A DNA stretch of 64,000 nt from Ornithinimicrobium sufpigmenti (GTDB lineage Bacteria; Actinomycetota; Actinomycetes; Actinomycetales; Dermatophilaceae), in the NCBI RefSeq assembly GCF_004322775.1, contig NZ_CP036403.1:248001-312000 (forward strand). Direction: 5' to 3'. Of this stretch, positions 11,852-28,157 are shown piece after piece. Every line of letters starts with the position of its first letter. Positions within the stretch are counted from its first letter, which is position 1. The notes below the pieces were generated by a model. That model saw only the letters and a program-made list of their open reading frames with translations, had not been told where the DNA came from and made no database searches. The position numbers and the translations under genes were made by a program.

Positions 11852-11852
11852 G

Positions 11853-12188: not shown

Positions 12189-12194
12189 GGTGCG

Positions 12195-12926: not shown

Positions 12927-14537
12927 GTGAGTTCATGGGCCGAGGAGATCGCGTCCTGGCGGGAGTCGCTGTCTGGTGCCAGCGTGGAGGGTCTGTGTGA
13001 TGAGGACCGGTTGGCTGTGCTGCGGGAGCTGGAGCTGCTCACCCGGGCTGCGGCCGGGGTCGGTGCTGGTCTGCAGGTCGCGTTCTACACCTCGCAGGTC
13101 GCTGCGCAGATCGCTGACGGCATCGCCCCCTCACGCGCCGGGAAAGCGGTGCCGGATGACCTGGCCCAGGCCCGGCTGACCTCTCCCTACTGGGGGTCAC
13201 GGGAGCTGACCAGCGCCAAGGCCCTGGTGCAGGAGATGCCGCGCACGCTGGGTGCGTTGCGTACCGGGGTGATCACCGCGCTGCAGGCCCGGGTCATCAC
13301 CGAGGCCACCACCTGCGTCGACGTGGCCGACCGTGCCGAGATCGATGAGCGGCTGGCGCCCCAGCTGGCCGGGGCGTCCACGCGCGAGATCGGGGCCCTG
13401 GCGCGCGCGCTGGTGTATGAGGTGGACCCGGCCGGTTTCGTGGCCCGCGCCCGCAAGGCGGCCGCGGACCGCGGGGTCTCGATCCGTCCCTGCCCGGACG
13501 TCATGGCCCTGCTCAGCGCTCGCCTGCCCGCACCGCAGGCCATCGCCTGCTACCAGTCACTGCGCACCACAGCCGAGGCCATGAAGACCTCCGGCGACCC
13601 TCGCACCCTGAGCCAGCTGATGGCCGACGTGCTCTTCGAACGCCTCACCGGCCGCACCGTCGTCGACGGCATCGACGTCGAGGTCGGCCTGGTCATCACC
13701 GACGAAGCCCTCTTCGCCGGCACCTCCGACACGGCCCTCCTGCTCGGCTACGGACCGATCCCGGCCCAGACCGCCCGGGACCTGCTGAACCCCACCACCG
13801 ACACCAACGCCAACGACGACCAGGCTGCCCCCACCGACGCCGCCGAGGACGACGAGGCAGCCCCCAGCGATGCCGCAGAGGACGACGACGCTGCCCCCAG
13901 CGGTGCCACCGAGGACGAGCAACCTGCCGTCCGTGCCGGCTACTGCCCCGAGGGTCCCCGGTGCACCAGCTTCTCCTGCACCTTGACCCACGGCCACCCG
14001 GCCGCCAGCGGGCTCCCCGCACCCCCCGACCTCGGCTCACTGACCCACGAGGCGCGGCACGCTGAACCAGCCGACACGACCGTCGCCAGCCCGCACGAAC
14101 CTCGACCTCCCGCCTCGGGGGAGGAGTCTGCCCACCGGGCCCCGCCAGCCGGGCTGCCATCGGCGGCCGGACACGCGGCGACCGTGTGGGTACGACGGCT
14201 GTACACAGACCCCGTGACCGGTGTCCTCACCGACCGCGACAGCCGCAAGCGACTCTTCACCGGCTCCCTGCGCGCCTTCCTCATCTCCCGCGACCAGACC
14301 TGCCGCAACACCTGGTGCGGTGCGCCCGTGCGGCACATCGACCACGCCCAGCGCCACGCCGACCACGGCCCCACCGACGCAGACAACGGCCGCGGCCTCT
14401 GCGCTCGTTGCAACCTCGCCCGAGAACGCCCCCGACAGCTCGACACCCCACCGGCGACCTACCGCCCCCCACCCCCGATGCTCCCCTGCCTACCCCGGCC
14501 CGAGCACAGCAGCGGACCTCCAGGTCGAGCGGCATGA
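12927..14537 (+). CDS. DUF222 and HNH endonuclease domain protein (13E12-type)
   Basis: A protein of about 536 residues. The N-terminal two-thirds is a DUF222-type helical domain (LRELELLTRAAAGV, SRELTSAKALVQEMP). The C-terminal HNH nuclease module has TCRNTWCGAPVRHIDHAQRH ... NGRGLCARCNLARE, keeping the Cys pairs of the zinc site and the catalytic HIDH. An Asp/Ala-rich linker near residues 290-330 is built from a repeated EDDxAAPS unit. This family is repeated in many actinobacterial genomes and its biological role is unsettled. The start is uncertain: GTG 12927 follows a G-rich site, with GTG 12918 as an alternative. Confidence 0.8.
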   Translation: MSSWAEEIASWRESLSGASVEGLCDEDRLAVLRELELLTRAAAGVGAGLQVAFYTSQVAAQIADGIAPSRAGKAVPDDLAQARLTSPYWGSRELTSAKALVQEMPRTLGALRTGVITALQARVITEATTCVDVADRAEIDERLAPQLAGASTREIGALARALVYEVDPAGFVARARKAAADRGVSIRPCPDVMALLSARLPAPQAIACYQSLRTTAEAMKTSGDPRTLSQLMADVLFERLTGRTVVDGIDVEVGLVITDEALFAGTSDTALLLGYGPIPAQTARDLLNPTTDTNANDDQAAPTDAAEDDEAAPSDAAEDDDAAPSGATEDEQPAVRAGYCPEGPRCTSFSCTLTHGHPAASGLPAPPDLGSLTHEARHAEPADTTVASPHEPRPPASGEESAHRAPPAGLPSAAGHAATVWVRRLYTDPVTGVLTDRDSRKRLFTGSLRAFLISRDQTCRNTWCGAPVRHIDHAQRHADHGPTDADNGRGLCARCNLARERPRQLDTPPATYRPPPPMLPCLPRPEHSSGPPGRAA

Positions 14538-14584
14538 CCTCACCCACCGGACACGGCTGGACCAGCCCGCTGGACGGGTAGCGC

Positions 14585-15763
14585 TCACCGCTGGATGAGC
14601 TCCCTCGGGAAGTGGGTGAAGATCTCCACGCCGTCGTCCATGACGCGGACGGCCTCCGACACCACGTAGCCGTAACCGGTCATCCACATGCCGCAGATGA
14701 TGTGGAAGGTCATGTTGGTCTCGAGCAGGGTCGTGTCCTCGCTGCGGATGCTCACCGTCCGCTCGCCCCAGTCCGGGGGGTAGCCGATGCCGATGGAGTA
14801 GCCCAGCCGCGAGGGTTTGGTCAGCCCGTGCTCGGCGAGGGCGAAGTTCCACACCTCGGCCAGCCGCGCGACCGGCACCCCCGCCCGCGTGCTGTCGAGC
14901 ACCTGCTGCAGGCCGCTCGCCACCGCCTCCTCCACCCGCAGCAGCTCTGCCGTGGGCCGTCCGAGCATCACCGTCCGGGCCGACGGCACGTGGTAGCGGC
15001 GGTGTGCCCCGGCCAGCTCGACGACCACTGCCTCGTCGCGCTGGAGCGGGCGGTCGGTCCAGGTCAGGTGGGGGGTGTCGGAGGACTGCCCGGTCGGCAG
15101 CAGCGGCACGATGGCCGGGAAGTCCCCCCAGGCGTCCCCGTCGCCCAGCGTCTGGGCGCGCTGGATCTCGGCCGCCACGACATGCTGGGGCACGCCGACC
15201 CCGATGGTCCCCAGCGCGGCCTCCATGGCCTTCGTCGTCACCCGCGCCGCCAGCCGCATGAGCTGGATCTCGACGTCCGACTTGACCAGCCGGACCCAGT
15301 TGACCAGCTCGAAGCAGTCGACGAAGGTCCACTCCGGCACCGCGTTGACCAGGGCCCGGTAGGCCTTGGGGGAGAAGAAGTGGGAGTCCATCTCCAACCC
15401 GATCACCCCGCGCGTCCGACCCACGAGGTGCCGCTTGCGCAGGTTGATGGCGACCCAGTCGAAGGGGTGGAAGTGCGGCCGGTGGATGTGGTTCTCCGGG
15501 TAGCCGACGATCTGCTCCTGGGGCAGCCAGCAGGTGCGGTGCGCGCCGCCGGCGTCCATGTGCCGGGTGTAGAGCACCAGCTCACCCTCGGCCGGGACGA
15601 AGAGCAGCTGCGGGGTGTAGAACGACCACGCGTGGTAGCCGGTGAGGTAGTAGATGTTCGCCGGGTCGGTGACCAGCAGGGCGGCCAGCCCCTGGTCGGA
15701 CATCCGTGCTCGCACCCTCGCCAGCCGGGCGTCATACTCCCCGCGCGTGATCTCCACGCTCAT
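14585..15763 (-). CDS. M24 creatinase-like hydrolase, similar to ectoine hydrolase DoeA
   Basis: A 392-residue pita-bread-fold protein. The N-terminal domain has ALLVTDPANIYYLTGYHAWSFYTPQ. The C-terminal domain has AVVVELAGAHRRYHVPSARTVMLG and GIGYPPDWGERTVSI. The Asp/Glu metal ligands of true aminopeptidase P are not all present, as in creatinase and DoeA-type amidinohydrolases; length and pattern match DoeA. No doeB/C or ectoine genes are adjacent, so ectoine or a peptide-like amide remain possible substrates. The ATG at 15763 has AGGAGG upstream, and a 37-codon ORF overlaps it. Confidence 0.75.
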   Translation of the reverse strand: MSVEITRGEYDARLARVRARMSDQGLAALLVTDPANIYYLTGYHAWSFYTPQLLFVPAEGELVLYTRHMDAGGAHRTCWLPQEQIVGYPENHIHRPHFHPFDWVAINLRKRHLVGRTRGVIGLEMDSHFFSPKAYRALVNAVPEWTFVDCFELVNWVRLVKSDVEIQLMRLAARVTTKAMEAALGTIGVGVPQHVVAAEIQRAQTLGDGDAWGDFPAIVPLLPTGQSSDTPHLTWTDRPLQRDEAVVVELAGAHRRYHVPSARTVMLGRPTAELLRVEEAVASGLQQVLDSTRAGVPVARLAEVWNFALAEHGLTKPSRLGYSIGIGYPPDWGERTVSIRSEDTTLLETNMTFHIICGMWMTGYGYVVSEAVRVMDDGVEIFTHFPRELIQR

Positions 15764-15873
15764 CGAAGTCCTCCTGACCGACGGACGGGCCTGATCATGC
15801 ATTCCTCCAGCTCCCACTGCGCGGTCGACGGTGACGGGGTGGGCTGCTGCGGCAGCGGCTCAGGCGCGGGCAT
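15760..15873 (-). CDS. Possible leaderless small ORF coupled to the M24 gene
   Basis: A 37-codon ORF, ATG at 15873, reading MPAPEPLPQQPTPSP and ending in a TGA that overlaps the M24 gene's ATG (ATGA). TAGGAT lies 5 nt upstream of its ATG, matching the leaderless promoters of the window. The M24 gene has no other obvious promoter, so this could be the true 5' end of the transcript. Whether the peptide itself has a role is unknown. Confidence 0.4.
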   Translation of the reverse strand: MPAPEPLPQQPTPSPSTAQWELEECMIRPVRRSGGLR

Positions 15874-15903
15874 GCCCGATCCTAGGGCCCGGGGCCTGCG
15901 TCC

Positions 15904-15952
15904 GTGACACGGGTGTCACCCGATCGGCGGACACGGCGCCATCCGATCGGCG
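15904..15952. promoter_or_regulatory. Palindrome and twin CCGATCGG sites upstream of the LAP precursor
   Basis: GTGACAC-GG-GTGTCAC (15904-15919) is a perfect palindrome. It is followed by CCGATCGGCG at 15920-15929 and 15943-15952, exactly 23 bp apart; the core CCGATCGG is itself palindromic. They lie 125-175 bp before the precursor ATG in the 314-bp gap between the M24 gene and the cluster. They are candidate sites for the LuxR-type regulator encoded at the cluster's end. No convincing -35/-10 pair was found closer to the gene. Confidence 0.45.
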
Positions 15953-16077
15953 AGAGTCGTCCCGCACCTGTTGCCGAGCCGCTGCGCGAGGCCGAACACT
16001 GGTGTGCGCACCCGCTTCTCGCGGGAACCTGCACTCGATCACCATCACCCACCGGATCAGAAAGGAAGATGACTGCC

Positions 16078-16233
16078 ATGACCCTCCCCCTCACGCCGGA
16101 TGCACTGCGAGGCGCCGTCGACAGCGCGATGGTCCAGACCTTCGGCGAGACGGCCGTGCTGTTCGAGCCGACCGCCGCTCGCTGTTCGTCGTCCTCCTCG
16201 ACCTGCTGCGTCCTCTGCGTCAAGGTGTCCTGA
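16078..16233 (+). CDS. Plantazolicin-like LAP/TOMM precursor peptide
   Basis: A 51-residue peptide. The start is ATG 16078 because AAAGGAAG lies 9 nt upstream; the in-frame ATG at 16069 is too close to that site. The leader is 34 residues and ends LFEPTAA, nearly identical to the LFEPMAA that ends the plantazolicin leader. The deduced core is RCSSSSSTCCVLCVKVS. It begins with Arg-Cys as in plantazolicin but then differs: nine consecutive cyclisable residues (C36-C44), then VL, Cys, VKV and a final Ser. Known family: YcaO-modified linear azol(in)e peptides. Inferred: Cys becomes thiazole and Ser/Thr become oxazole or methyloxazole, and the N-terminal Arg is dimethylated after leader removal. 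The product and its activity are unknown. Confidence 0.9.
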   Translation: MTLPLTPDALRGAVDSAMVQTFGETAVLFEPTAARCSSSSSTCCVLCVKVS

Positions 16234-16248
16234 CGCCAGGCCGCCCCT

Positions 16249-16290
16249 GAGGGCCCGGAGCTCCGCGCTGCTGCGGGGCCCCGGGCCCTC
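16249..16290 (+). terminator. Attenuator-like hairpin after the precursor gene
   Basis: GAGGGCCCGG (16249-16258) and CCGGGCCCTC (16281-16290) form a perfect 10-bp stem; inside the loop CCGC/GCGG can add a second stem. It starts 15 nt after the precursor stop and lacks a U-tract. Such a hairpin probably ends or protects most transcripts so that precursor mRNA exceeds that of the enzymes. Confidence 0.65.
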
Positions 16291-16403
16291 CGTCGTCCGG
16301 CCACTCCTGGGTGGGGCCAACGGCCTTGTCCTCCGAACGGATGACAGCCCGACGAGCCGAGTGGGCGTCGCGGGCGGCGGCCCCGGGCAGCCACAGTGGC
16401 GCC

Positions 16404-17318
16404 ATGGACACCACATACCTCAGCCACGCGATCGATGTGCAGGACGTCGTCGTCCGCTACGGCGACGTGACGGCTCTGGACGGCGTCGACCTCCAGGTCG
16501 AGCCGGGCCAGGTGACGGCCCTGCTGGGCCCCAACGGGGCCGGCAAGACCACCTTGGTCGACTGCCTGGAGGGCTTCCGCCGACCGACCTCGGGCACGGT
16601 GCGCGTCCTGGGCACCGACCCGTGGCGCGCCGGCACCCGTTGGCGCGACCGCATCGGCGTCGTCCTGCAGGACACCAGGATGGACGCCGACCTCACCGTC
16701 GCGGAGTTCGTCGCGATGACCCGCGGGTGGTATGCCGACCCGCTCGGGGCCGACGAGATCCTCTCCGCCGTGGGGCTCACCGGGCTGGCCGACCGCCGGG
16801 TGCACAAGCTCTCCGGCGGCGAACGGCGCCGCCTCGACCTGGGGCTGGCGCTGGCCGGACGGCCGGACCTGCTCTTCCTCGACGAGCCCACCACAGGGCT
16901 GGACCCCAACGCCCGGCGCGAGCTGTGGGACCTGCTCTCCGGCCTGCGCAGCCAGGGGCACACCATCCTGCTGACCAGCCACGACATGCACGAGGTCGAG
17001 GCGCTCGCCGACCGGGTCGCCGTGCTCATCGACGGACGGATCCGCGCGGAGGGCACGGTCGCACAGCTGCGCGAGCAGTCGGAGCTGCCCTCGACCGTGT
17101 CCTTCGTCAGCAGCGCCGACCCCACGCGCATCGCCCCGCTGGGAGCCGAGCGTGACGAGCGCACCGGGCGCTGGCAGCTCCGCACGGACGACACCACCGA
17201 CGCGCTGCGGCGGATCACCGCCGCACTGGGCGAGGACGTGATGGACGTCCAGCTCCGTACCCCCACCTTCGAGGACGTCTACCTCACCCTGCTCGGCCGA
17301 AAGGAGGCCCACTCATGA
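16404..17318 (+). CDS. ABC transporter ATPase of the LAP cluster
   Basis: A 304-residue ATP-binding subunit of a daunorubicin-resistance-type (ABC-2) exporter. Seen: Walker A GPNGAGKTT, Q-loop VVLQDTRM, signature LSGGERRRLDLGLALAG, Walker B LLFLDEPTTGLD, H-loop TSHDMHE and a C-terminal regulatory beta-rich tail. The corresponding plantazolicin genes (pznG/H) are an ABC pair. The start is ATG at 16404; the upstream in-frame ATGs lack a better ribosome site. The gene overlaps the permease (ATGA). Probable role: export of, and self-protection against, the mature peptide. Confidence 0.9.
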   Translation: MDTTYLSHAIDVQDVVVRYGDVTALDGVDLQVEPGQVTALLGPNGAGKTTLVDCLEGFRRPTSGTVRVLGTDPWRAGTRWRDRIGVVLQDTRMDADLTVAEFVAMTRGWYADPLGADEILSAVGLTGLADRRVHKLSGGERRRLDLGLALAGRPDLLFLDEPTTGLDPNARRELWDLLSGLRSQGHTILLTSHDMHEVEALADRVAVLIDGRIRAEGTVAQLREQSELPSTVSFVSSADPTRIAPLGAERDERTGRWQLRTDDTTDALRRITAALGEDVMDVQLRTPTFEDVYLTLLGRKEAHS

Positions 17319-18160
17319 TGACCGCCAGCTCCGTCCACAACGACACCGCACCGCTCATGACCACCCCCGCCACCCCTGCCGACGGCCAGACCTCGTCCCG
17401 CCGCCCATCCCCGCCGGGTGCGCTCGGCAGCGCCGTGCGGCAGCTGCGCTGGGACTGGCTGCAGCAGGTGCGCAACCCGTCTGCGGTCTTCTTCACGCTG
17501 GCGCTGCCGGTGCTCTTCCTGCTCGCGTTCGCGGTCACCAGCACCGACACCGAGGCCGCCGCGGGGTACTACGTCCCGACGATGATGGGGTTGGCCGCGG
17601 CCTCGGGCACGCTGACCAACCTCGCGGTCACGCTGACCTACCTGCGCGAGTACGGCCAGCTCAAGCGCATCCTGGTCACGCCGCTGCCGCGCAGCTCCTT
17701 CCTCGCCGGCCGGATCGCGGCCGCGGGCATCGTCTCCCTGCTGACCTGTGCCGTGCTCGGCCTCGTCGGGGCAGTCGCGTATGACGTCGTGCCCGAGCAG
17801 GTGTGGGCACTGCTGCTCGCCCTGGTCCTGATCATCGCGGCCGGCAGTGCGATCGGGGTGCTCACCACGACGATCATCCGCAGCGAGACCGCCGCGGCGC
17901 CCGTCGCCAACGCCATCGGCCTTCCGGTCATGCTGGCCTCCGGAGTCTTCTTCCCGCTCTCCACCGCCCCCGACTGGTTCACGCGGGTCGCCGAGCTCCT
18001 CCCGTTCACCCGGTCCGTCGAGCTGGCGGTGGCCGCGTACGACGGGACCGTCACCAGCGAGCTCGTGCTGCAGGCGCTGCTCACCGGCGGCCTGTGGACC
18101 CTCGGGGCGATCCTGCTGGCCGTCCGGTTCTTCAGCTGGGCGCCACGCAAGAGGCGGTGA
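17315..18160 (+). CDS. ABC-2 type permease of the LAP cluster
   Basis: A 281-residue membrane protein with a 45-residue polar N-terminus and six predicted transmembrane helices (starting at FFTLALPVLFLLAFAV). The region LREYGQLKRILVTPLPRSSFLAGRI between helices 2 and 3 is typical of ABC-2 permeases, as is ASGVFFPL near helix 5. It overlaps the ATPase stop by 4 nt and should form the channel of the exporter. Confidence 0.9.
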   Translation: MMTASSVHNDTAPLMTTPATPADGQTSSRRPSPPGALGSAVRQLRWDWLQQVRNPSAVFFTLALPVLFLLAFAVTSTDTEAAAGYYVPTMMGLAAASGTLTNLAVTLTYLREYGQLKRILVTPLPRSSFLAGRIAAAGIVSLLTCAVLGLVGAVAYDVVPEQVWALLLALVLIIAAGSAIGVLTTTIIRSETAAAPVANAIGLPVMLASGVFFPLSTAPDWFTRVAELLPFTRSVELAVAAYDGTVTSELVLQALLTGGLWTLGAILLAVRFFSWAPRKRR

Positions 18161-18165
18161 CGGCG

Positions 18166-18948
18166 ATGCCCGTGTCGATGCCATCGGCCACCCCCGCCCT
18201 TGCCGCGAACAGCCTGACCGTCCGCTCCCAGCGAGAGAGCATCCTCCGCGCCGCTCGGCAGGCCCACGGCACCGAGACCGCTGACCTCCCCGAGGGCGCC
18301 GTGCTCGCTGACCTGTGGAGCACCGACGAGTCCTGGCGCGACCACCTCCGTCAGGCCCTCGCGACCGGAGGGCCGGTGGTGCTCCTGTCCAGCCTGGGGA
18401 TCGACGGTCCCGGGCGCCACGCCGCCTATGCGCAGGTCCTCGCGGACCGCGAGCGGTACGCGCGCCAGGCGGCCCCGGACGCGGTGGTGCTGCGGCTGGC
18501 GCCGGTCGTCGAGGACCTGGCCGTCTACGAGGACGCGCTGCGTGCGGGGCTGCCCATCCACCACGCGTACCCGGCGGAGCCGGTCGCCTGGCTCGCGGCG
18601 CGTGACGCCGTCGCCGTGGCCGCGGCGGCCCTGCGCACCGGCCGCACCGCCGCGGTGCTCGACGTGGCCGGCGGTCAGGAGGTCACCGTGACCAGGCTCC
18701 TGCAGGAGTACGCGCGCCAGCTCGGCGCAACCTCTCCAGGACTCGTCCCCGTCCCGCCCGAGCAGCTGCTGGCCCGGCTCCAGCAGGTCTTCGGGGCGGC
18801 CAGTGCCGCCGCCGTCGTCGGCCACCAGCAGTGGGTGGGCTCCCTCGCCGGACGCACCGGCCGTGGCGCCGAGACGGTGCGACGGGCGCTGGGGCGAGAG
18901 CCCACCGACTGGGCCACGGCGGTGGCCGACCTCGCGATGCTCCGCTGA
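18166..18948 (+). CDS. NmrA/SDR-like protein lacking the nucleotide-binding loop
   Basis: A 260-residue protein of the LAP cluster. Its central and C-terminal part follows the NmrA-like atypical SDR pattern: VVLLSSLGIDGPGRHAAYAQ, VVLRLAPVVEDL, AWLAARDAVAVAAAALRTG (usually the DVA motif), VLDVAGGQEVTVTRLLQEY and VPPEQLLARL. The N-terminal GxxGxxG Rossmann loop is missing: the protein starts in the fourth or fifth strand. It may therefore have lost NAD(P) binding and act as a scaffold or immunity factor. It sits where plantazolicin clusters carry the unexplained gene pznJ, but I cannot claim homology. The start is ATG 18166 (GAGGCGG upstream); GTG 18157, overlapping the permease stop, is possible. 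Confidence 0.6.
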   Translation: MPVSMPSATPALAANSLTVRSQRESILRAARQAHGTETADLPEGAVLADLWSTDESWRDHLRQALATGGPVVLLSSLGIDGPGRHAAYAQVLADRERYARQAAPDAVVLRLAPVVEDLAVYEDALRAGLPIHHAYPAEPVAWLAARDAVAVAAAALRTGRTAAVLDVAGGQEVTVTRLLQEYARQLGATSPGLVPVPPEQLLARLQQVFGAASAAAVVGHQQWVGSLAGRTGRGAETVRRALGREPTDWATAVADLAMLR

Positions 18949-18960
18949 CCCACCCACGGC

Positions 18961-19020
18961 GCGCCCTGACCGCACCACGCGACGCCCTGACCGACACCAC
19001 AGGGGCGCCCTGACCGACAC
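18961..19020. repeat. Three short direct repeats before the small membrane gene
   Basis: CGCCCTGACCG recurs at about 18962, 18983 and 19006 with 21- to 23-bp spacing; the last two copies share CGCCCTGACCGACAC. They fill most of the 99-bp gap between the NmrA-like gene and the next gene. No hairpin is obvious. Function unknown. Confidence 0.5.
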
Positions 19021-19047
19021 GACACAGAGCGACGGAAGGAATCGACC

Positions 19048-19251
19048 ATGTCACCCTCGCGCAACGATCTCGTCCTCGCGCCGATCCTGCTGGCCCTGGG
19101 CCTCAGCGTCTTCGGCGGCCTGGTGGTCTGGCTGATCACCCAGTCGACCGGCCACGCGCTGACCTCCGCGGCCATCGGCCTCGTCATCGGCGCAGCCATC
19201 TACCTGCTCTCCGTCGGCAGCGCCCGCAAGAACGAAAGGCAGCTTCCATGA
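19048..19251 (+). CDS. Small two-helix membrane protein of the LAP cluster
   Basis: A 67-residue protein with two hydrophobic helices (about residues 9-30 and 38-58) and a basic tail (ARKNERQ). Good ribosome site (GGAAGGAA) before the ATG. Its stop overlaps the start of the cyclodehydratase C gene (ATGA), so it is translated together with the modification enzymes. Possible roles are membrane anchoring of the enzyme complex or immunity. I know no characterised homologue. Confidence 0.75.
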   Translation: MSPSRNDLVLAPILLALGLSVFGGLVVWLITQSTGHALTSAAIGLVIGAAIYLLSVGSARKNERQLP

Positions 19252-20207
19252 CCTCCCCCACGCTCGCCCCGCGCACCCGGTTGCTCCGGTCCGGCGACAC
19301 CTTGCTGGTCGCCAAGGACTCCGAGGTCCGCACCATCTCAGGCGCCCCTGCGGTCGACCTCGTCGAGACCCTGGTCCGCTCCGCCCGCGGCCCCCGGCTA
19401 CCGGTCCCCGCCGATGCCGGCCCGGAGTGGCACGCCTTCGTCGCGCTGCTCACCGAGGCTGGGCTGGTGACGACCGACCCGGCCGTGGCACGGGCCAGCG
19501 GGCAGGCCCGCCTGCTCTGGGACCGCTGCGGGCAGGCGCTACCCATCCAGAACATCGACCGGGCGCTGCGCGGGTCGACGATCCCCGTGGTGGGCAGCGG
19601 CACGGTGGCGGACCGCATCCGCCAGATCGTCGAGGAGGCCGGGCCGCGGGTCGTGGCGGACCGGGAGGCCGGCAGGTGCGGCGCCGACATCCCTGGCGCG
19701 GCCGCGGTCACCGTGGTCGTCGGGGAGTCGCTCACCGACCCGGTCCTGCTGGACCACAACGAGTGGGCGCTGGAGCACCGTGCGCCGTGGCTGGCCGTCG
19801 TCCCGGACGACGCCGGGCGCTCGGTCGTCGGGCCGTATGTCGTGCCCGGCTCCTCGGCCTGCTTCCGCTGCTACCTGCTCCGAAGGAACGCCAACTTCCC
19901 GGACCGGCGCATCATCGGCGAGCTGAGCACCGCCGAGCCGGTGCCCACGAGCACCCCTCGGGTCGAGCTGCTGGGTATGGGGTGGTTCACCGCCGCCCTC
20001 GCGGCGGAGAAGGTGCTGGAACGGGTGGCGCTCGGCGACCACTCCTCGATGAGCGCTCCCGGCTCCCTGGCCAGCATCGAGCCCGCCCGACCCGGCGTCG
20101 ACGTCTCCGAGCACCGGGTGCTGCGGGTACCGCGCTGCCCGGCCTGCTCGCCGACGGCCGGGCGCGGCCTGCCCCAGGTGTGGTTCCACGGTGGTGAGCG
20201 GCCGTGA
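19248..20207 (+). CDS. TOMM cyclodehydratase partner (E1-like C protein)
   Basis: A 319-residue E1/ThiF-like protein that in this family binds the leader peptide and presents it to YcaO. The N-terminal 95 residues have the winged-helix RRE character expected for leader binding. The middle holds a degenerate Rossmann segment (STIPVVGSGTVADRIRQIV) without a complete ATP loop. A structural zinc site is formed by C205-F-R-C208 and C297-P-A-C300, both seen. ATP is used by the YcaO partner, not by this protein. It overlaps both neighbours by 4 nt. Counterpart: PznC. Confidence 0.9.
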   Translation: MTSPTLAPRTRLLRSGDTLLVAKDSEVRTISGAPAVDLVETLVRSARGPRLPVPADAGPEWHAFVALLTEAGLVTTDPAVARASGQARLLWDRCGQALPIQNIDRALRGSTIPVVGSGTVADRIRQIVEEAGPRVVADREAGRCGADIPGAAAVTVVVGESLTDPVLLDHNEWALEHRAPWLAVVPDDAGRSVVGPYVVPGSSACFRCYLLRRNANFPDRRIIGELSTAEPVPTSTPRVELLGMGWFTAALAAEKVLERVALGDHSSMSAPGSLASIEPARPGVDVSEHRVLRVPRCPACSPTAGRGLPQVWFHGGERP

Positions 20208-21616
20208 CGGCGACGATCACGGGCGCATCGACCACCGGCCTGATGACCGCGCCGCCCACCCGCGCCATACCCACCCTGTGCACCGACACCCCCTGGACCG
20301 ACCCCGCGGTCGGCTGGGACCGGCTGGCCACCTTCGCCTCCCCGCTGGTCGGGGTCGCGCACCGGCTCTTCGAACAGCTCCACGACGTGGACGACATCCG
20401 GATGGCCGGCGTGGGTGCGCAGGCGTGCGAGTCGACCTGGCTGCTCGGCGCCCCCTGCAACGAGCTCAACGGCGGCGGCGCCGGCGACCCACGCCAGGCA
20501 CGGGCCGCCGCGATCGGCGAGACGGTCGAGCGCTACAGCGGCGCCTACGTCGACCCGCTGACCTTGACCCCCGCCACGCCTGCCGAGCTCGCGGCCCAGG
20601 GTGTCGACCACGTCCGGCCCGACGAGCTGACGCTCCTGGCGCCCGAGCAGCTCGCCGACCCGGAGTGCCCGTTCTCCCCGTTCACCGACCGCACCCGGCT
20701 GCAGTGGGTGACCGGCACCGACCTGGTCGGTGGCCACCCGGTCGCCGTGCCCGCCCAGCTCGTCCACCTGATCGGCCGCGCACTGGGTGACACCCCGATC
20801 GGTTATGCCACCAGCAACGGTATGGCGTGCGCCTGCACCTGGGAGGAGGCCGTCCTGTCGGGCCTGCTGGAGGTCGTCGAGCGCGACGCCTTCATGGCCA
20901 CCTGGTACGGCCGGCTGTCGTTGCCCCGCGTCGACGTCTCGTCCTCCCCCGAGCTGCGCCGGTTCTTCGCCGACCACGTCGACCCAGCGGGCCTCGACGT
21001 GACGCTGGTCGACATGTCGGTGCTGGTGGACGTGCCGGCCGTGCTGGCGGTGGTCCGCAACGACGGCAGCGGCGTCGCCCCCCTCGCGCTCGGCGCCGCG
21101 GCCTCCGCCGACCCGGCCACCGCGGTCCGCAAGGCAGTCATCGAGGCCTTCCAGACGCGCACCTGGGCCAAGGCCGAGCAACGGGAGGGTGCGGTCATCG
21201 ACCCGGCGGAGGGCCTGGACCAGGTCCACGACTTCGACGACCACGTGCGGCTCTCGCTGCACCCCGCGACCATCGAGGCGGCCTCGTTCCTGGACGCCTT
21301 ACCGGTCACGGTGCCGCTCTCGGCGCTCCCGGCCGTCGACGGCGACACCCCCGGTCGGATCGTGCGCAACGTCATGGCGCGACTCACCCCGCAGGGCGTG
21401 CGGGCCGTGGCCTGCGACGTGACCAGCCCCGACGTCGCCGAGGGCGGCCTCGTCGTGGCGAAGGTCTTCTCCCCGCAGCTCAGCCCGCTCGACAGCGGCT
21501 ACCGCACCCGGCTGCTCGGCAGCCGCCGGCTGCGGGAGCGGGCCTTCGAGGTCGGGGTCCTGGACCGCCCGCTCGACTTCAGCGACCTCAACCCGTGGCC
21601 GCACCCCTTCCCGTGA
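20204..21616 (+). CDS. YcaO cyclodehydratase (D protein)
   Basis: A 470-residue ATP-dependent enzyme that activates backbone amides and cyclises Cys/Ser/Thr to azolines. YcaO signatures are present: AIGETVERYSGAYV (G105-E106 and the ERYS ATP/Mg site), LLEVVERDAFMATWYG (near residue 225) and a C-terminus NPWPHPFP that fits the PxPxP motif known to be needed for azoline formation. The GTG at 20204 overlaps the stop of the C gene (GTGA). Together with the C protein it should form the heterocycle synthetase for the precursor at 16078. Counterpart: PznD. Confidence 0.95.
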   Translation: MTATITGASTTGLMTAPPTRAIPTLCTDTPWTDPAVGWDRLATFASPLVGVAHRLFEQLHDVDDIRMAGVGAQACESTWLLGAPCNELNGGGAGDPRQARAAAIGETVERYSGAYVDPLTLTPATPAELAAQGVDHVRPDELTLLAPEQLADPECPFSPFTDRTRLQWVTGTDLVGGHPVAVPAQLVHLIGRALGDTPIGYATSNGMACACTWEEAVLSGLLEVVERDAFMATWYGRLSLPRVDVSSSPELRRFFADHVDPAGLDVTLVDMSVLVDVPAVLAVVRNDGSGVAPLALGAAASADPATAVRKAVIEAFQTRTWAKAEQREGAVIDPAEGLDQVHDFDDHVRLSLHPATIEAASFLDALPVTVPLSALPAVDGDTPGRIVRNVMARLTPQGVRAVACDVTSPDVAEGGLVVAKVFSPQLSPLDSGYRTRLLGSRRLRERAFEVGVLDRPLDFSDLNPWPHPFP

Positions 21617-21649
21617 GGCCACGTCCCACCCCCTGGAGGTAAGAACGAG

Positions 21650-22483
21650 ATGATCACCGACTCCATCCACGGCGCCAACCTGGTCGACATCGTCTACGGC
21701 GAGGTGCCGGCGCCAGGTGACGTCGCCGAGGACTTCGTCGAGGCGACCAAGATCCACCGGGACGCCATGGGCTGGGACGCGCCCGGAGTACGCATCCTGG
21801 AGACCACGCCCGAGATGCACCCGGTCGTCGCCCGCGCCGGCCAGCGCCACCTGTCCCGGGACGCCGTCGAGCTGCCCGAGCCAGAGCCCGTCGCCGCCGC
21901 CTTCAGTGACGTCTTGCGGCGACGGGTCAGCGCGGAGCACTTCTCGGCCGAGCCGCTGACCTTGGCGGAGCTGTCGACGCTGCTGCGCCACGCCTGGGAG
22001 CCGCAGCCCGGTACCGGCCCGGCCCACGGCGGGCCGCCACGCCGTCCCTCTCCGTCCGCCGGGGCGCTGAACCCGCTCGAGCTGTGGGTGGTGGTCCGGG
22101 ACGTGCGGGGCCTGGCGCCGGGGCTGTACCACGTCGAGATGCCCAGCTCCGGCACGGCGCTGCTGACCCGGGTCCGGGACGCGGACGTGCCGGCGCTGGC
22201 CCGCGCCGCCCTGCAGGAGGAGATGGTCCTGGCTGCGCCGGCGACCCTCGTGGTGGCGATGATGCCGTGGCGGTCGCGGTTCAAGTACGGTCCACGGGCG
22301 GTCCGGTTCGCCCTCATGGAGGCGGGCCACACCTGCCAGACGCTGCTGCTGACCTGCGCGGCCATGGGGCTGGCGGCCCGGCCGCTGGGCGGCTTCTGCG
22401 ACGACGAGGTCAATGAGCTGCTGGGCTTCTGCGGCGTGGACCAGGTGCCGCTGTACCTGGTGCCGGTCGGGCGTCCGGGCTGA
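21650..22483 (+). CDS. SagB-type FMN-dependent azoline dehydrogenase
   Basis: A 277-residue nitroreductase-fold protein that oxidises azolines to azoles. Seen: RRPSPSAGALNPLELWVVV (FMN-binding), RFKYGPRAVRFALMEAGHTCQ with the K212-Y213 pair that corresponds to the catalytic Lys-Tyr of azoline dehydrogenases, and GLAARPLGGFCDDEV. Its presence predicts aromatic azoles rather than only azolines in the product. AGGTAAG precedes the ATG; the stop overlaps the protease ATG by 1 nt (TGATG). Counterpart: PznB. Confidence 0.93.
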   Translation: MITDSIHGANLVDIVYGEVPAPGDVAEDFVEATKIHRDAMGWDAPGVRILETTPEMHPVVARAGQRHLSRDAVELPEPEPVAAAFSDVLRRRVSAEHFSAEPLTLAELSTLLRHAWEPQPGTGPAHGGPPRRPSPSAGALNPLELWVVVRDVRGLAPGLYHVEMPSSGTALLTRVRDADVPALARAALQEEMVLAAPATLVVAMMPWRSRFKYGPRAVRFALMEAGHTCQTLLLTCAAMGLAARPLGGFCDDEVNELLGFCGVDQVPLYLVPVGRPG

Positions 22484-23067
22484 TGAGCCCGGCCCGTCCG
22501 GCCCGGGTCGGCGCCTCCGCGCCCCCGGTGGCGCTGGTCCACGGGCTGGTTCCCTGGGCGATCGCTGCGGGGGCGCGGGGTCGTGGGCCCGCGGCCTGGG
22601 TCGAGACCTGCACCCGCCACCCGCAGCGGACGTATGACGTGGCGACCCTCCTGCTGGCCGCGCTCGCCGCGGCGCGCGGCCACCGAGGAGGGACCCTGGC
22701 CGCCGTCGCGACGGGGATCTGGCTGGGCGCTCCCAGGCCAGCCTCAGCCCCCGCGCTGACCTGCTCCGTGGCAACGGCCGAAGAGGTGATCTGGCGCGGC
22801 GTGCGGACGCCGGCGTGGTCGGTGGTGATGTTCGCCCTGCTGCACGCGCCGGCGCATCCCCGTCGCTGGCCCTACCACCTGCTCACCGGGGCTGTGCTGC
22901 ACGGCGTCGCCAGCCACCTGGGGGTGACGGCGGCAGCCCTGCTGCACGCCGTCCACAACCTGGCCGTGGAACGCCGCGCCGCGCTGGCGACACGGGCGGC
23001 TCGCGAGTCGACAGCAGGAGCCGGGACCGGTGCGGCACCCGCCCTCGACCCGGCGGTCGACTGGTGA
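22483..23067 (+). CDS. CPBP (Rce1/Abi-type) intramembrane protease, likely leader peptidase
   Basis: A 194-residue membrane protein with the three CPBP active-site motifs in order: E100-E101-V-I-W-R105 (EExxxR), F-A-L-L-H (FxxxH) and H-A-V-H-N (HxxxN). This protease type occupies the same place in plantazolicin clusters (PznE). It is the only peptidase here, so it is the best candidate for cutting between AA and RC of the precursor. Direct proof for this family's role in LAPs is limited, and immunity is an alternative. Converges on the regulator gene with a 7-nt gap. Confidence 0.85.
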   Translation: MSPARPARVGASAPPVALVHGLVPWAIAAGARGRGPAAWVETCTRHPQRTYDVATLLLAALAAARGHRGGTLAAVATGIWLGAPRPASAPALTCSVATAEEVIWRGVRTPAWSVVMFALLHAPAHPRRWPYHLLTGAVLHGVASHLGVTAAALLHAVHNLAVERRAALATRAARESTAGAGTGAAPALDPAVDW

Positions 23068-23074
23068 CCGGGCC

Positions 23075-23713
23075 TCAGCCCTCCGGGTCGATCAGCCCCT
23101 GGGTGATCGCCGCGCGCACCGCGGCCGCCCGGTCGTTGACGCCGAGCTTGGTGTAGCACCGGGCGAGGTAGGTCTTCACGGTGGCCTCGGACAGGTACAG
23201 CCGCCGACAGATCTGCCCGTTGGTCATGCCGAGCGACACCAGGGTGAGGATCTCCCGCTCCCGCTCGCTCAACGCTGCCTTCTCCTGCGGCTCCCGCAGA
23301 TGCCGGGCCAGTGCTGCGCCGACCTCCGGGGAGACCACCATCTCGCCGCGGGAGGCTTGGGCCAGCGCACCCCTGATCTCGCTCAGGGAGGCGTGCTTGG
23401 GCACGAAGCCGACGGCGCCGGCCCGGATCCCGTTGGCGATCTCGACCGGGTTGGACGTGGCTGACAGGATGAGGACGGGCACGTCCGGGTGCGCGTCCCG
23501 CAGCTGGGCGATGAGGTCCGTGCCGGTCATCCCCGGCATGGACAGGTCGGTGAGCACCACGTCCGGGCTGGTGCGGGCGACGGCGGCGAGGGTGTCGCGG
23601 GGGTCGGTGACACTGGCGACCACCTCGATCTCGCCGGACTCACCCAGCAGCAGCGACAGGCCGGTGGTGACGATCTCGTGGTCGTCGACGACGAGCACCC
23701 GCAACGGGGTCAT
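23075..23713 (-). CDS. NarL/LuxR family response regulator of the LAP cluster
   Basis: A 212-residue regulator: receiver domain with acidic pocket D10-D11, phospho-acceptor D56 (VVLTDLSMPGM), the Thr/Ser switch (LILSATS) and Lys near residue 104; LuxR-type helix-turn-helix at the C-terminus (LSEREREILTLVSLGMTNGQICRRLYLSEATVKTYL). Last gene of a three-gene operon; its ATG overlaps the kinase stop. It probably activates the biosynthetic operon; the palindromes at 15904-15952 are candidate targets. Confidence 0.93.
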   Translation of the reverse strand: MTPLRVLVVDDHEIVTTGLSLLLGESGEIEVVASVTDPRDTLAAVARTSPDVVLTDLSMPGMTGTDLIAQLRDAHPDVPVLILSATSNPVEIANGIRAGAVGFVPKHASLSEIRGALAQASRGEMVVSPEVGAALARHLREPQEKAALSEREREILTLVSLGMTNGQICRRLYLSEATVKTYLARCYTKLGVNDRAAAVRAAITQGLIDPEG

Positions 23714-24921
23714 CGGCCCGCCTCTGCCGGTGCCGCCGTGCCGGCCGCGTCGAGCGGCACCATGGCCGAGACGGTCGTGCCCTGTCCTGGCTCGGTGTCC
23801 AGGAGCAGCACCCCGCCGGCCTCGCGGACCCGGGTGCGCATGCCACCCAGGCCGAAGCCGTGGCCGGCGCTGCGGCCGGGGGCGATGGCGTCGGGGTCGA
23901 AGCCGGCGCCGTCGTCCGTCACCTCGAGCAGCAGCATCTCGCCGTCGGGGCGCACACTCACCTCGACGCGGCCGGCCCGGGCGTGCGCAGCCGTGTTGGA
24001 GAGGGCCTCCCGCAGCACCCGCAGGATGACCCCGCGCGCCACCGGTGACGGGCAGCAGCCCTCGAGGTCGACCGTGACCTGGGAGCGCAGACCGGTGGCC
24101 GTCGTCACCGCCTGCACGGCCATGGTGACCGAACGCTCGAAGTCGTCCTCCTCCAGGTCGTCCTCCGCCGTCCGCGCGAGGAGACCGCGCAGCTCGCCCA
24201 GCGCGCTGACCACCTGCTCGTAGGCCATCGCGGTATGGGTGTCGTCGGCGACCGCGCCGCTGCCCGCCTGGCGCTGGTGGGCGACCTCGAGCAGCATCCG
24301 GGTCACCGTGAGCCGTTGCAGCACGCCGTCGTGGACGTCCTGAGCCATCCGTGCGCGCTCAGCGGCGGCGCCCTGCTGCCGGCTGGCCTCCGCGAGGTCG
24401 GCCTGGGTCGCGGCGAGGTGGCGCAGCGCCTGCGCCCGTGACTCGCTGAGGGAGACGATCTGGGAGACCCAGGTGCCGGCGATCAGGCTGAAGACGAAGC
24501 CGACCACGAGGGCCACCAGGGCTGGCTGGCCGGAGGCTCCCTGATGGAGCAGCAGCGCCCCGACACACAGGGCGAACAGCGCGGTCACGCTGGCCAGGGC
24601 CCGGGGCAGGGGCAGGAACCAGAACAGCTGCGGGACGAGCGCGGGGAGGAGCAGCGCCGCGGCTGGGGTCACGACCGCCACGACGGCGCAACCCAGCAGC
24701 GAGGAGCCGATGAGCAGCAGGTCGTGGTAGGCCGCCCGACCGTCCTCGCGGGCGTTCACGACATACCCGGCCACGATCACCACGGCGCCCACGATGACGA
24801 GGGCCGCGCGGGGCCACCCCGCCGCAGCGAGCGCGAGCACGACGGCGACGCCGAGCGTCAGCCCGAAGAACGCGTGCCAGCCGGGTCCGGTCCCCTCCCG
24901 CTCCTCGGCGTTCACCGTCAT
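23710..24921 (-). CDS. Sensor histidine kinase (HisKA_3 type) of the LAP cluster
   Basis: A 403-residue membrane kinase. The N-terminal part has about five hydrophobic helices with very short loops, so it may sense a membrane-embedded signal or cell-envelope state. A coiled-coil linker follows, then the H-box (ERARMAQDVHDGVLQRL) and an ATP-binding domain (LREALSNTAAHARA, DDGAGFDP, GHGFGLGGMRTRVREAGG). Start ATG 24921, overlapping the methyltransferase stop (ATGA). Pairs with the regulator downstream. Confidence 0.92.
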   Translation of the reverse strand: MTVNAEEREGTGPGWHAFFGLTLGVAVVLALAAAGWPRAALVIVGAVVIVAGYVVNAREDGRAAYHDLLLIGSSLLGCAVVAVVTPAAALLLPALVPQLFWFLPLPRALASVTALFALCVGALLLHQGASGQPALVALVVGFVFSLIAGTWVSQIVSLSESRAQALRHLAATQADLAEASRQQGAAAERARMAQDVHDGVLQRLTVTRMLLEVAHQRQAGSGAVADDTHTAMAYEQVVSALGELRGLLARTAEDDLEEDDFERSVTMAVQAVTTATGLRSQVTVDLEGCCPSPVARGVILRVLREALSNTAAHARAGRVEVSVRPDGEMLLLEVTDDGAGFDPDAIAPGRSAGHGFGLGGMRTRVREAGGVLLLDTEPGQGTTVSAMVPLDAAGTAAPAEAGR

Positions 24922-25730
24922 GGCCGGCGCAGTCGGGCGTACAGGACGGTATCGGCCTTGGCGGTCGCCGCCTCGTCGCCGTCGAACGCGGCCACGGCCT
25001 GGGCCACCCCGGGCGCCGTCCACAGGTCGGCCGCCTCCGCGGAGTCGTAGGGATACCCGGCCAACCCGCCCCGGGCGACGTGCACCACCGCCGAGCCCCC
25101 CGCCTCGGCCGCAGCCCGGCGCAGCAGATCGTCCAGGGCCGCGACGTCGAAGGATGCCGCGAGCTGGTCGTGGAGATAGGCACGCTCCTGCGGGGTGCGG
25201 GCCAGGTCCAGGAAACGCTCGCGGTCCGCTTCGTCCTGCGGGGCAGCCACGTCCACGAGGTAGAGCGTCCCGCCTGCGCCGAGGTGGGACACCGCCTGGC
25301 GCAGCCCCTGCCCTGGGTCGCTCCACAGCCCGAGGTTGAGGTGGCACAGCACCAGGTCGAAGTGTCGCGGCCCGTCATACCCGCGCGCGGCCAGCGCCTC
25401 CGGGAGCCGCTCGGCGGTGCCCGCCAGGATATGGACCGCGGGATCGCCGGCGTGCCGGGAGGTGGCGGCCGCCACCGCCTCGGGGGCGGGGTCGAGGCCC
25501 ACGAGGACCGCGTCGCGGTCCAACGCCCGGAGGTCGCTGATCAGCTCGCCCCCGCCACAGCCGAGGTCCAGCACCGCTGCCGGCGACGGCCGCAACGCCA
25601 GTCCCAGGGCGGCCGTCAGGCGCCGTGAACCGGCGGTCTCCCGGTCGTCGAAACTGCCGCTCACCGAGCGGCGGTCAGCCCTGACGAACCAGCTCTGCGC
25701 GGTGGCCCCTGATGCGTCATCCCCTCGCAT
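24918..25730 (-). CDS. SAM-dependent methyltransferase, candidate Arg N-dimethyltransferase (PznL-like)
   Basis: A 270-residue class I methyltransferase: AAVLDLGCGGGELI (residues 52-64, SAM loop), VGLDPAPEAV (acidic end of strand 2) and FDLVLCHLNLGLWSDP (strand 4). Length is close to that of the plantazolicin N-terminal Arg dimethyltransferase (about 264 residues, from memory). It is the first gene of the operon with the cluster's kinase and regulator, and the precursor core begins with Arg, the known target. The assignment to PznL rests on context; sequence-specific Arg-pocket residues were not verified. TAAGGT lies 6 nt before the ATG (leaderless). Confidence 0.75.
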   Translation of the reverse strand: MRGDDASGATAQSWFVRADRRSVSGSFDDRETAGSRRLTAALGLALRPSPAAVLDLGCGGGELISDLRALDRDAVLVGLDPAPEAVAAATSRHAGDPAVHILAGTAERLPEALAARGYDGPRHFDLVLCHLNLGLWSDPGQGLRQAVSHLGAGGTLYLVDVAAPQDEADRERFLDLARTPQERAYLHDQLAASFDVAALDDLLRRAAAEAGGSAVVHVARGGLAGYPYDSAEAADLWTAPGVAQAVAAFDGDEAATAKADTVLYARLRRP

Positions 25731-25834
25731 GTGGCGACCTTACTGCACCCTTACGACCCGCTCAGCCGTGCGCGACGCGACCCTGCTCTGGCGCCAGGGC
25801 CAGCGTCATCGCTCCGGCGAGGACGTCCTGCCGC

Positions 25835-26056
25835 CTACAGCTTCTCCAGCTTGTGGAACGGGCTGACGATGCGCTCGGTGCGGTTGCTGAAGTTCACGGT
25901 GACCGCTGCCTTCTCGGTGCCCACCACCCGCCCGAGCCCGTACGACTGGTGTGAGACTCGGTCGTGCAGCTCGAAGGTCTCGATCTCGGGCACGACGTCT
26001 GGCTTGAAGGGGCTCGACGCGAGGTGACGCCGCTGAGGTCTGGACCGTGATGTCAT
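25835..26056 (-). CDS. Small Tudor-like domain protein
   Basis: A 73-residue basic protein. After about 30 polar residues it has FELHDRVSHQSYGLGRVVG, then AAVTVNFSNRTERIVSPFHKLEKL. This resembles the Tudor-like C-terminal domain of UvrD-type helicases (HxxYGxGxV ... FxKLxKL), which touches RNA polymerase. A regulatory role at the polymerase is possible but unproven. The ATG at 26056 lies 6 nt after CATACT. Confidence 0.65.
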   Translation of the reverse strand: MTSRSRPQRRHLASSPFKPDVVPEIETFELHDRVSHQSYGLGRVVGTEKAAVTVNFSNRTERIVSPFHKLEKL

Positions 26057-26275
26057 CTTCTCAGTATGGGCTCTGCAGCGGCCCACCCGGTCAGCCGGTC
26101 AGCGCCATGCTGTCGGTCGGGAGCCGGACGCGGGTCGAGGCCGGCATCGGTGAGGACCGCGAGGGCTCCCTGCGACAAGGCCCCGGCGATCCACCGAACG
26201 GTGGAGGCGCGGATCAACCCTGGCTCGGCCGTGACGGTGGATGTGGAGGCAGCGGTGCGCTCGTAGGTTCGCACC

Positions 26276-27211
26276 ATGACCGCCGTTGAAGTGCGACATC
26301 TGCACAAGCGCTACGGGCAGCACCCTGCCGTCGACGACGTCTCGTTCTCCGTGGAGGAGGGGGAGATCTTCGGCATCATCGGGCCCAACGGCGCCGGCAA
26401 GACGACCACGGTCGAGAGCATCGCCGGCCTGCGGACGCCCGACTCCGGCTCGATCTCCGTCCTGGGACTCGACCCGGTCAAGGACCGGGCCGAGGTGCGT
26501 GAGCGACTCGGGGTGCAGCTGCAGGAGAGCAGCTTTCCCGATGCGATCAGGGTCGCCGAGGCGCTCGACCTCTACAGCTCCTTCTACCGTGACCCCGCCG
26601 ACTGGCGCGAGCTCATGGGGCTGCTCGGTCTCACCGAGAAGCGCAACACGCAGTACCGGGCCCTCTCAGGAGGCCAGAAGCAGCGCCTGTCGATCGCGCT
26701 CGCCCTGGTGGGCAACCCCAAGGTCGCGATCCTGGACGAGCTCACGACGGGGCTGGACCCGCAGGCGAGGCGGGACACCTGGACCCTCATCGAGCGGGTG
26801 CGTGACACGGGCGTGACGATCCTCCTGGTCACGCACTTCATGGATGAGGCACAGCGCCTCAGCGACCGGATCGCCGTCATCGACGGTGGCCGGGTGGCTG
26901 CACTGGACACGCCCTCAGGGCTGATCGCGCGGACCAGCGCGGTGCAGCAGGTCCGGTTCCGCGTGGGTCGGCCGCTGGAGAAGAGTGTCCTCACCGAGCT
27001 GCCCGAGGTGACCGAGGTCGACGTCAGGGAGGGCCGCTGGGTGGTCACCGGCCGGGGCCAGCTCCTGAGCAGCGTCGCAGAGGCCCTCGCGAGGGCCCAG
27101 GTGGTGGCCATGGATCTGCGCGCCGACCAGGGGACGCTCGACGACGCGTTCCTGACCCTGACGGGACGGGCCCCGGACCACTCCCCAGCCACTGATCGGA
27201 AGGGTCACTGA
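26276..27211 (+). CDS. ABC transporter ATPase whose permease is disrupted
   Basis: A 311-residue ABC-2-type ATPase: Walker A GPNGAGKTT, Q-loop VQLQESSF, signature LSGGQKQRLSIALALVG, Walker B VAILDELTTGLD (Leu instead of the usual Pro after DE) and H-loop LVTHFMDE. TAGGTT lies 6 nt before the ATG. The next gene, an ABC-2 permease, begins at 27211 (overlap TGATG) but is cut after about 18 codons by an IS3-family element. So the ATPase is an orphan unless it uses another permease. It stands near the LAP cluster and might once have been a second exporter. Confidence 0.9.
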   Translation: MTAVEVRHLHKRYGQHPAVDDVSFSVEEGEIFGIIGPNGAGKTTTVESIAGLRTPDSGSISVLGLDPVKDRAEVRERLGVQLQESSFPDAIRVAEALDLYSSFYRDPADWRELMGLLGLTEKRNTQYRALSGGQKQRLSIALALVGNPKVAILDELTTGLDPQARRDTWTLIERVRDTGVTILLVTHFMDEAQRLSDRIAVIDGGRVAALDTPSGLIARTSAVQQVRFRVGRPLEKSVLTELPEVTEVDVREGRWVVTGRGQLLSSVAEALARAQVVAMDLRADQGTLDDAFLTLTGRAPDHSPATDRKGH

Positions 27212-27264
27212 TGGGTGCTTTCCCCAGGATGGTCGCGGTCGAGACGAAGCTGTTCCTCCGAGAC
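27211..27264 (+). pseudogene. 5' remnant of an ABC-2 permease gene
   Basis: MGAFPRMVAVETKLFLRD is a typical ABC-2 permease N-terminus directly coupled to the ATPase gene. After codon 18 the frame enters the antisense strand of IS3 orfB, and no further permease sequence is found on the other side of the element. The gene is thus truncated, not merely interrupted. Confidence 0.75.
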
Positions 27265-27789
27265 CGCCCGCCAGCCGATCACCCGGCGGGAGAAGGCGTC
27301 GATCACGAACGCGACGTAGACCATGCCCAGCCAGGTCGGCACGTAGGTGAAGTCGGCAACCCAGAGCCGGTTCGGCGCGGGCGGGTCGAAGTCACGGTTG
27401 ACCAGGTCCGTCGCCCGCCGCGCGTGCTTGTCCGCGATGGTGGTGCGGGGCTTCTTGCCGTACTGGGCGCCTTCCCAGCCGTTAGCGCGGTAGAGCCGCT
27501 CGATCGTGCACCTGGCCACGTCGTGGCCCTTGCCGCGTAGCCGCAGCCACATCTTGCGACTGCCGAGGCCGGCCACCAGTTTCGAGGAAGCGCGCTCGGC
27601 CCGGATGAGCTCGGTGACCTGCTCGTCGCGCAGCGCCCGCGCGCTGGGCTTGCGGTTCACCCACTCGTAGTAGGTGGAGGGGCTGATGCCGATGCCGTGC
27701 TCGCTCAGCACGGCGCACAAGGGCTCGACACCCCACCGCAGGCCATCGCCCACCCGGTGGTCCTTGTGCTCGGTGATGAAGGCGATCAC
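27265..27789 (-). pseudogene. IS3-family transposase orfB, truncated
   Basis: The frame encodes the integrase-type transposase of IS3 elements: the helical HTH_21-like part (HGIGISPSTYYEWVNRKPS), then the DDE core with first Asp in LWVADFTYVPTW and second Asp in FVIDAFSRRVIGWR. After GWRA the frame runs into flanking permease DNA and ends at 27205, so the final third including the catalytic Glu is missing. It overlaps orfA by 4 nt; in intact members the two are joined by frameshifting. Confidence 0.85.
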
Positions 27790-28109: not shown

Positions 28110-28157
28110 GACCTGCATCCTTCCAACGGATCAGGTCTCCGGACACCCCGGGATGGC

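Follow-up and report, generated by a model that had tools for sequence, protein, structure and literature searches.

A complete azole-peptide gene cluster with an unbroken run of nine ring-forming residues in Ornithinimicrobium sufpigmenti, placed beside the plantazolicin family

The window analyzed here, a 64,000-nucleotide stretch of Ornithinimicrobium sufpigmenti (assembly GCF_004322775.1, contig NZ_CP036403.1, positions 248,001 to 312,000), holds at 15914-25783 a complete gene cluster of the linear azol(in)e-containing peptide/thiazole/oxazole-modified microcin (LAP/TOMM) kind: a precursor, an ATP-binding cassette (ABC) transporter pair, and genes J, C, D, B and E, with a convergent methyltransferase gene, L, and a two-component system. 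At a probability of about 0.8, we read it as a sister lineage of plantazolicin, likely to make a long linear polyazole from nine consecutive ring-forming residues behind a dimethyl-arginine cap. Judged by its genes it is filed as a LAP/TOMM cluster that would work like plantazolicin, beside rather than inside that family. The genes and their order, the conservation of the cassette, the motifs and family matches, the core block shared among precursors, and the split in the trees were observed directly.

Directly behind LFEPTAAR, the precursor carries C-S-S-S-S-S-T-C-C, nine ring-formers without interruption, and the runs over the entire core are 9, 1 and 1. A first-pass annotation, made from the letters of the window, had called this core unfamiliar, which is supported; the precursor is kept in the sole close relative that keeps the enzymes (congener G019, taken to be Ornithinimicrobium pratense), and when a better short open reading frame (ORF) was sought, the plantazolicin-precursor model matched only this one genome-wide. 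The ATG at 16078 also proved the better start, since the in-frame ATG at 16069, which was rejected, lies only 2 nt behind an AGGA and is missing in the congener; the precursor searches used the 54-residue form beginning at 16069. From about 5.8 billion proteins these gave 14 candidates, 13 of them relatives. Across all 14 aligned precursors (window included), the leader starts and the tails differ, but LFEPTAARCSSSSSTCC and a later Cys do not. Two relatives (P0001 and P0002, 96% identical to the window precursor) belong to the same genus group, and 11 from outside it share the block with other tails; named sources of relatives are Nesterenkonia aerolata, Actinomyces, and a Desertimonas metagenome-assembled genome (MAG). 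Another nine in a row, with a single Ser-to-Cys change relative to the window, occurs in a core (RCSCSSSTCCVLCVKK) on the Corynebacterium tuberculostearicum plasmid NZ_CP073097.1 (L066), which was reached through its C protein. That ORF (L066 6954-7124) adjoins a recombinase gene on a mobilizable skin plasmid and is not in the PLSDB gene table, itself incomplete. When ten other precursors were scored against the curated model TIGR04218, four plantazolicin-type precursors and that of G614 (core RCSCTTVPCCCCCGG) passed, and the three nine-run precursors (Actinomyces, Nesterenkonia and Corynebacterium) failed, as did those of Longimycelium and G1178. Standard annotation can thus miss such clusters, with the window precursor below the curated model and the Corynebacterium ORF outside its gene table.

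Within 16078-25730, the + strand carries the precursor, ABC ATPase, permease, J, a 67-residue protein, C, D, B and E, and the - strand carries L, a sensor kinase and a LuxR-type regulator in convergent orientation. The features are as follows.

15914-25783, no strand: whole cassette common to congener G019; a single blastn block at 87.7% DNA identity, with the flanks directly outside not aligning.
16078-16233, +: precursor A, 51 amino acids, leader ending LFEPTAA, core RCSSSSSTCCVLCVKVS; relatives in other taxa; TIGR04218 at 20.5 bits, cut-off 45.
16249-16290, +: G+C-rich hairpin 3′ of the precursor gene, a likely attenuator; folds in window and congener.
16404-17318, +: F, ABC transporter ATPase; PF00005, 116.1 bits.
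17315-18160, +: G, ABC-2 permease; PF01061, 79.4 bits.
18166-18948, +: J, 260-residue protein common to plantazolicin clusters; relatives at other loci, no Pfam or NCBIfam match.
19048-19251, +: H, 67-residue protein with two hydrophobic stretches by hydropathy, possibly for immunity (a guess); elsewhere only in G019.
19248-20207, +: C, cyclodehydratase partner that would bind the leader, two CxxC pairs by alignment; TIGR03882, 51.3 bits, cut-off 36.9.
20204-21616, +: D, YcaO cyclodehydratase ending PHPFP by alignment; TIGR03604, 287.8 bits, cut-off 219.25.
21650-22483, +: B, SagB-type flavin mononucleotide (FMN) dehydrogenase, FKYG kept; TIGR03605, 101.5 bits, cut-off 78.4.
22483-23067, +: E, CPBP-type membrane protease, likely the leader peptidase; motifs align with E of plantazolicin-type clusters, no family match.
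23075-23713, -: LuxR-type response regulator; PF00072, PF00196.
23710-24921, -: HisKA_3 sensor kinase; PF07730, PF02518.
24918-25730, -: L, plantazolicin-type N-methyltransferase; best PDB matches BpumL/BamL at E 1.3e-17 to 8.8e-17, the next at 0.0015.

Every part named by the first-pass annotation was found at or near its place by Pfam, NCBIfam and motifs, and two genes missing from its list, J and that of the 67-residue protein, were added. Its remark that nearly all junctions are 4-nt overlaps did not hold, as this is true only of F/G, H/C, C/D, regulator/kinase and kinase/L; B and E overlap by 1 nt, and gaps of 5, 99 and 33 nt separate G/J, J/H and D/B. Because the block shared with G019 ends at 15914 and 25783, the cassette takes in the regulators and L but leaves out the M24/creatinase-type peptidase gene adjoining the precursor (window 14585-15817, - strand), which was rejected as a cluster member. 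Synteny with G019 resumes further left (window 7620-12620), and right of the block the stretch compared holds only 2.9 kb of G019. Among 31 genus genomes, a close relative of C occurs in two, the window genome and G019; C-like matches at 0.001 occur in four, with the weak L006 and L007 not counted as cluster carriers. All reading frames are open, with dN/dS of 0.10-0.51 for all 12 genes between window and G019, and on this sequence evidence, together with precursor relatives in other taxa that share the leader end and core, the cluster is confirmed as standing beyond chance.

The enzymes are those expected of the class: C and a SagD-type YcaO protein, D, beside a Cys/Ser/Thr-rich precursor, with a SagB-type dehydrogenase present. 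Motifs were aligned with 9 to 11 relatives, and both CxxC pairs of C, the PHPFP/PHPYP end of D and the FKYG of B are kept; D in the window ends PWPHPFP, and the Lys-Tyr pair of B lies within RFKYGPRA. Further features shared with plantazolicin clusters are an Arg-Cys core start, a predicted L, the ABC pair (by Pfam), and E, which is named by motif and position only. E gave no match in Pfam or NCBIfam and aligns with its relatives at the EExxWR, FxxxH-like and HxxHN motifs and the final Trp. In L, a class I methyltransferase by Pfam/NCBIfam, the opening AQSWF...DxRET motif is conserved relative to BpumL/BamL, along with the Y(L/I)xDQ stretch.

To compare loci more widely, a degenerate leader/core pattern was run over 84,980 species genomes and found nine loci. 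Eight have plantazolicin-type cores of five ring-formers, two nonpolar residues and five or six more ring-formers, the split design described in the available text of PMC4603692; they are from Bacillus safensis, B. badius, Priestia flexa, Arthrobacter, Auritidibacter, Leifsonia and two MAGs. The Arthrobacter sp. H35-MC1 locus (L009) has two plantazolicin-type precursors in a row (940-974 and 1183-1217), their cores differing slightly (RCTTTTLISTTCTWA and RCTTTTLISTTSCWG). The ninth, in Longimycelium tulufanense (L055), has the core RCTTTTSTCSTCCCSS with a run of 15. RCSSSSSTCC was in none of the nine, in a collection that may omit records near the window genome. The order ABC pair-J-C-D-B-E-L is common to the eight plantazolicin-type clusters, whereas in the window L lies on the opposite strand, beyond the regulators. 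In a tree of 28 C proteins, built without Corynebacterium, G614, G797, G1178 and G1124, the eight plantazolicin rows lie on one side of a branch supported at 100/100, and the window, G019, 17 database relatives and Longimycelium lie on the other. The core type is tied to this second side directly or nearly so for five rows and assumed for the others; three of the five (P0025, P0027 and P0028) are database C rows whose contigs match in length those given for precursors with this core type. Adding five more rows kept the plantazolicin clade at 100/100 with long, unsure branches, including those of Corynebacterium, G614 and G797, so we base the split on the 28-row tree. The D tree likewise joins seven plantazolicin rows in one clade (100/99) with the window outside; it omits Leifsonia, a MAG whose D gene lies in two overlapping frames (L054 8360-9882), possibly through a frameshift or assembly error. 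Thus, the TIGR04218 failure, the tree split and the unbroken core place the cluster beside the plantazolicin family. The first-pass annotation was right that a complete cluster of plantazolicin type is present; its view of the cluster as simply a divergent plantazolicin needs revising, with the precursor model failed, the split core replaced and C outside the clade.

Sixteen loci have a readable precursor, and in 13 of them the core begins with Arg. L is within the stretch in 12 of these and on another contig in Longimycelium. The G1178 and G1124 cores do not have the Arg (FEPVAAACSSS and FEPVAAASSSS), and no L was found in either genome at 0.001. This co-occurrence fits an L that would act on the freed Arg, and a paper in the reference list of PMC4603692 names Arg-thiazole, in its title, as a minimal substrate. 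Both Arg-less loci have two tandem precursors (L070 9729-9920 and 9999-10190 in G1178; L071 9960-10100 and 10235-10375 in G1124), with cores such as FEPVAAACSSSVISCCCC and a LuxR regulator 3 kb away, and represent a methyltransferase-free relative. The core of the G797 precursor (L075 8625-8786) is Tyr-first, YFEPIAA-YCSSSCFCGDCTINT.

As for J, direct matches (0.01 or better) occur at 9 of 16 loci, the window included, and it is placed by position and alignment at five more; it was not found in G614 or on the Corynebacterium plasmid. By eye it looks like a degenerate NmrA/short-chain dehydrogenase. The 67-residue protein and the kinase recur, among the other loci compared, only in G019, and relatives of the regulator are also near the precursors of G1178 and G1124. 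The outer 10-bp stem of the hairpin is kept in the congener, with one G-C pair changed to A-T on both sides, and Rfam found nothing at gathering score over 14000-26500.

In the route we propose, C would bind the leader and present the core to D, which with ATP would cyclize C-S-S-S-S-S-T-C-C and perhaps also the single Cys that follows. B would then oxidize the azolines to azoles, E would cut between Ala and Arg, L would add two methyl groups to the freed Arg next to a thiazole, and the ABC pair would export the product. Expression is likely under the control of the two-component system. The hairpin probably serves to maintain an excess of precursor transcripts, and the 67-residue membrane protein may give immunity. 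For the untrimmed 17-residue core with two methyls, the predicted [M+H]+ is 1576.549 with ten azoles and 1596.575 with nine; run on plantazolicin A, the script returns 1336.478, in agreement with the known value. If all nine residues close, the strip would exceed both the plantazolicin blocks of five and the eight rings of telomestatin (from CTTSSSSS, in the available text of PMC5469769). Other Cys-rich LAPs, streptolysin-type peptides among them, were outside the comparison and may hold long runs too, and one LAP has nine Cys and eight rings, with contiguity not stated in the available part of PMC9576775; novelty is claimed for the variant and not for the kind.

Several points tell against a linear polyazole closed along the whole run. 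To our knowledge, full cyclization of nine contiguous residues has no experimental precedent, plantazolicin having five per block. The product is a prediction from the genes, and so are its ring formation, leader cleavage, methylation and activity. The window precursor does not pass TIGR04218, the proposed route assigns J no role, and a simple scan of 15800-16500 found no promoter and no T-run terminator. G797, with its Tyr-first core, has a distant L about 15 kb from C, an exception that shows L is not tied to Arg alone. Finally, the precursor search gathers by shared words and so favors look-alike cores, which means that part of the invariance is selected.

One rival is a plantazolicin-like product in which only part of the run is cyclized, for example the first five residues and the later cysteines, with unmodified serines as the spacer. 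Enzymes of the same kind make five-ring blocks from the 5+2+5 core of plantazolicin, and phazolicin occurs in forms with fewer rings (available text of PMC6783444); we nonetheless consider this unlikely, as the tail drifts among the 14 precursors but the whole run stays invariant, a constancy not needed if only part of it were used, and telomestatin has eight linked rings from CTTSSSSS (PMC5469769, in the text available). A telomestatin-like macrocycle, with the run excised at both ends and cyclized head to tail and VLCVKVS as a follower, seems very improbable: five consecutive serines beside Cys and Thr do resemble the precursor run given in that text, and the tail varies between species, but the invariant Arg before the run and the plantazolicin-type L point to a free N-terminus, and there is only one protease candidate. 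A thiopeptide or other TOMM with dehydrated rather than cyclized serines, suggested by the UniRef name of a Nesterenkonia precursor of this type ("Thiazolylpeptide-type bacteriocin"), was rejected as scarcely credible when no dehydratase or pyridine-forming enzyme was found in the ten cassette proteins (Pfam, NCBIfam) or the two regulators (Pfam). Nor do we expect a decayed or silent cluster with no product, an idea that its presence in just 2 of 31 genus genomes and the empty promoter scan would favor and that the open frames and the purifying selection on all 12 genes between two species make most improbable.

Building on the linear polyazole, we offer a tentative extension that we regard as somewhat less than an even bet, namely that the plantazolicin family has a second, so far unrecognized branch producing linear polyazoles without a spacer, here dimethyl-Arg-thiazole-(oxazole)5-methyloxazole-thiazole-thiazole and in Longimycelium from a core of fifteen. 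The core is near-identical although the C proteins of these actinobacteria are only 29-38% identical, which would mean that one target fixes the molecule. If true, a flat strip of such length could bind nucleic acid rather than membrane. If the sister-lineage reading holds, plantazolicin would be one branch of a wider family, another branch of which has no two-residue spacer between ring blocks, and the cluster would be a natural test of how far YcaO enzymes reach along contiguous serines, as well as a candidate antibiotic scaffold.

Further searches, in genome sets that overlap, returned few additional loci. The precursor hidden Markov model had 15 matches in 396 genomes of the order, of which 14 were dropped as chance frames and the sole precursor was the window's own. 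Searches with C proteins matched 2 of 186 genomes of the family (those of the window and G019), 3 of 394 of the class (window included), 4 of 395 from the G555 family (two of these, G555 and G548, were known before) and, among 27 genomes of the G797 genus, just G797. With the Desertimonas C protein as query, the window was the only match among 396 genomes of the phylum. Protein scans of genome-contig and viral-contig collections gave no relatives, and tblastn of the precursor against plasmids gave none, with a low-complexity filter that may hide such a core. Neither the core nor FEPTAARC was found in the literature searched, which did not extend to subscription articles or key supplements. The plantazolicin group of Cox et al. 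2015 (PMC4603692, in the part available) has 13 D proteins, and among its members is a Nesterenkonia cluster that is described as having no methyltransferase and whose precursor may be of this core type. A Dermacoccus genome paper claims a plantazolicin-type cluster, without printing the precursor in the available text (PMC11206071).

Elsewhere in the genome, a second YcaO gene (G000:C1:1986146-1987177, L001), apparently a C-D fusion followed by a SagB-like gene, marks a different TOMM-type locus. Elsewhere in the window, two transposase ORFs (27205-28118, - strand; HTH_Tnp_1, and HTH_21 with a partial rve domain that looks shortened), IS3-like by eye, lie directly behind an ABC ATPase gene (26276-27211), itself with no adjoining permease.

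Among known systems, telomestatin (tls) resembles the window cluster in its uninterrupted run of ring-formers with five serines, its YcaO protein and its FMN oxidase (PMC5469769, in the part available); it differs in that eight rings are closed into a macrocycle and the cluster as described there has other extra genes, that description mentioning no plantazolicin-type L. Longimycelium L055 has a spacer-less core, J-C-D-B and a C on the non-plantazolicin side, but its core is Thr-rich, L is on another contig, and the ABC pair and E were not found in the stretch read. The Corynebacterium plasmid locus shares the FEPTAARC leader end, the core SCSSSTCC with a VLCVK tail, L, the ABC pair, C, D and B; it differs by its one core substitution, a C only 28.7% identical, and a J that was not found. 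Plantazolicin clusters share with the window the ABC pair, the genes J, C, D, B, E and L, the LFEP-x-AA leader end and the Arg-Cys core start. No two-component system or 67-residue gene like the window's was found in the plantazolicin stretches compared, the four plantazolicin-type precursors tested pass TIGR04218 while the window's fails, and the plantazolicin C proteins form a clade separate from the window C. The cores differ as well, 5+2+5-6 with a nonpolar spacer in plantazolicin and nine in a row here.

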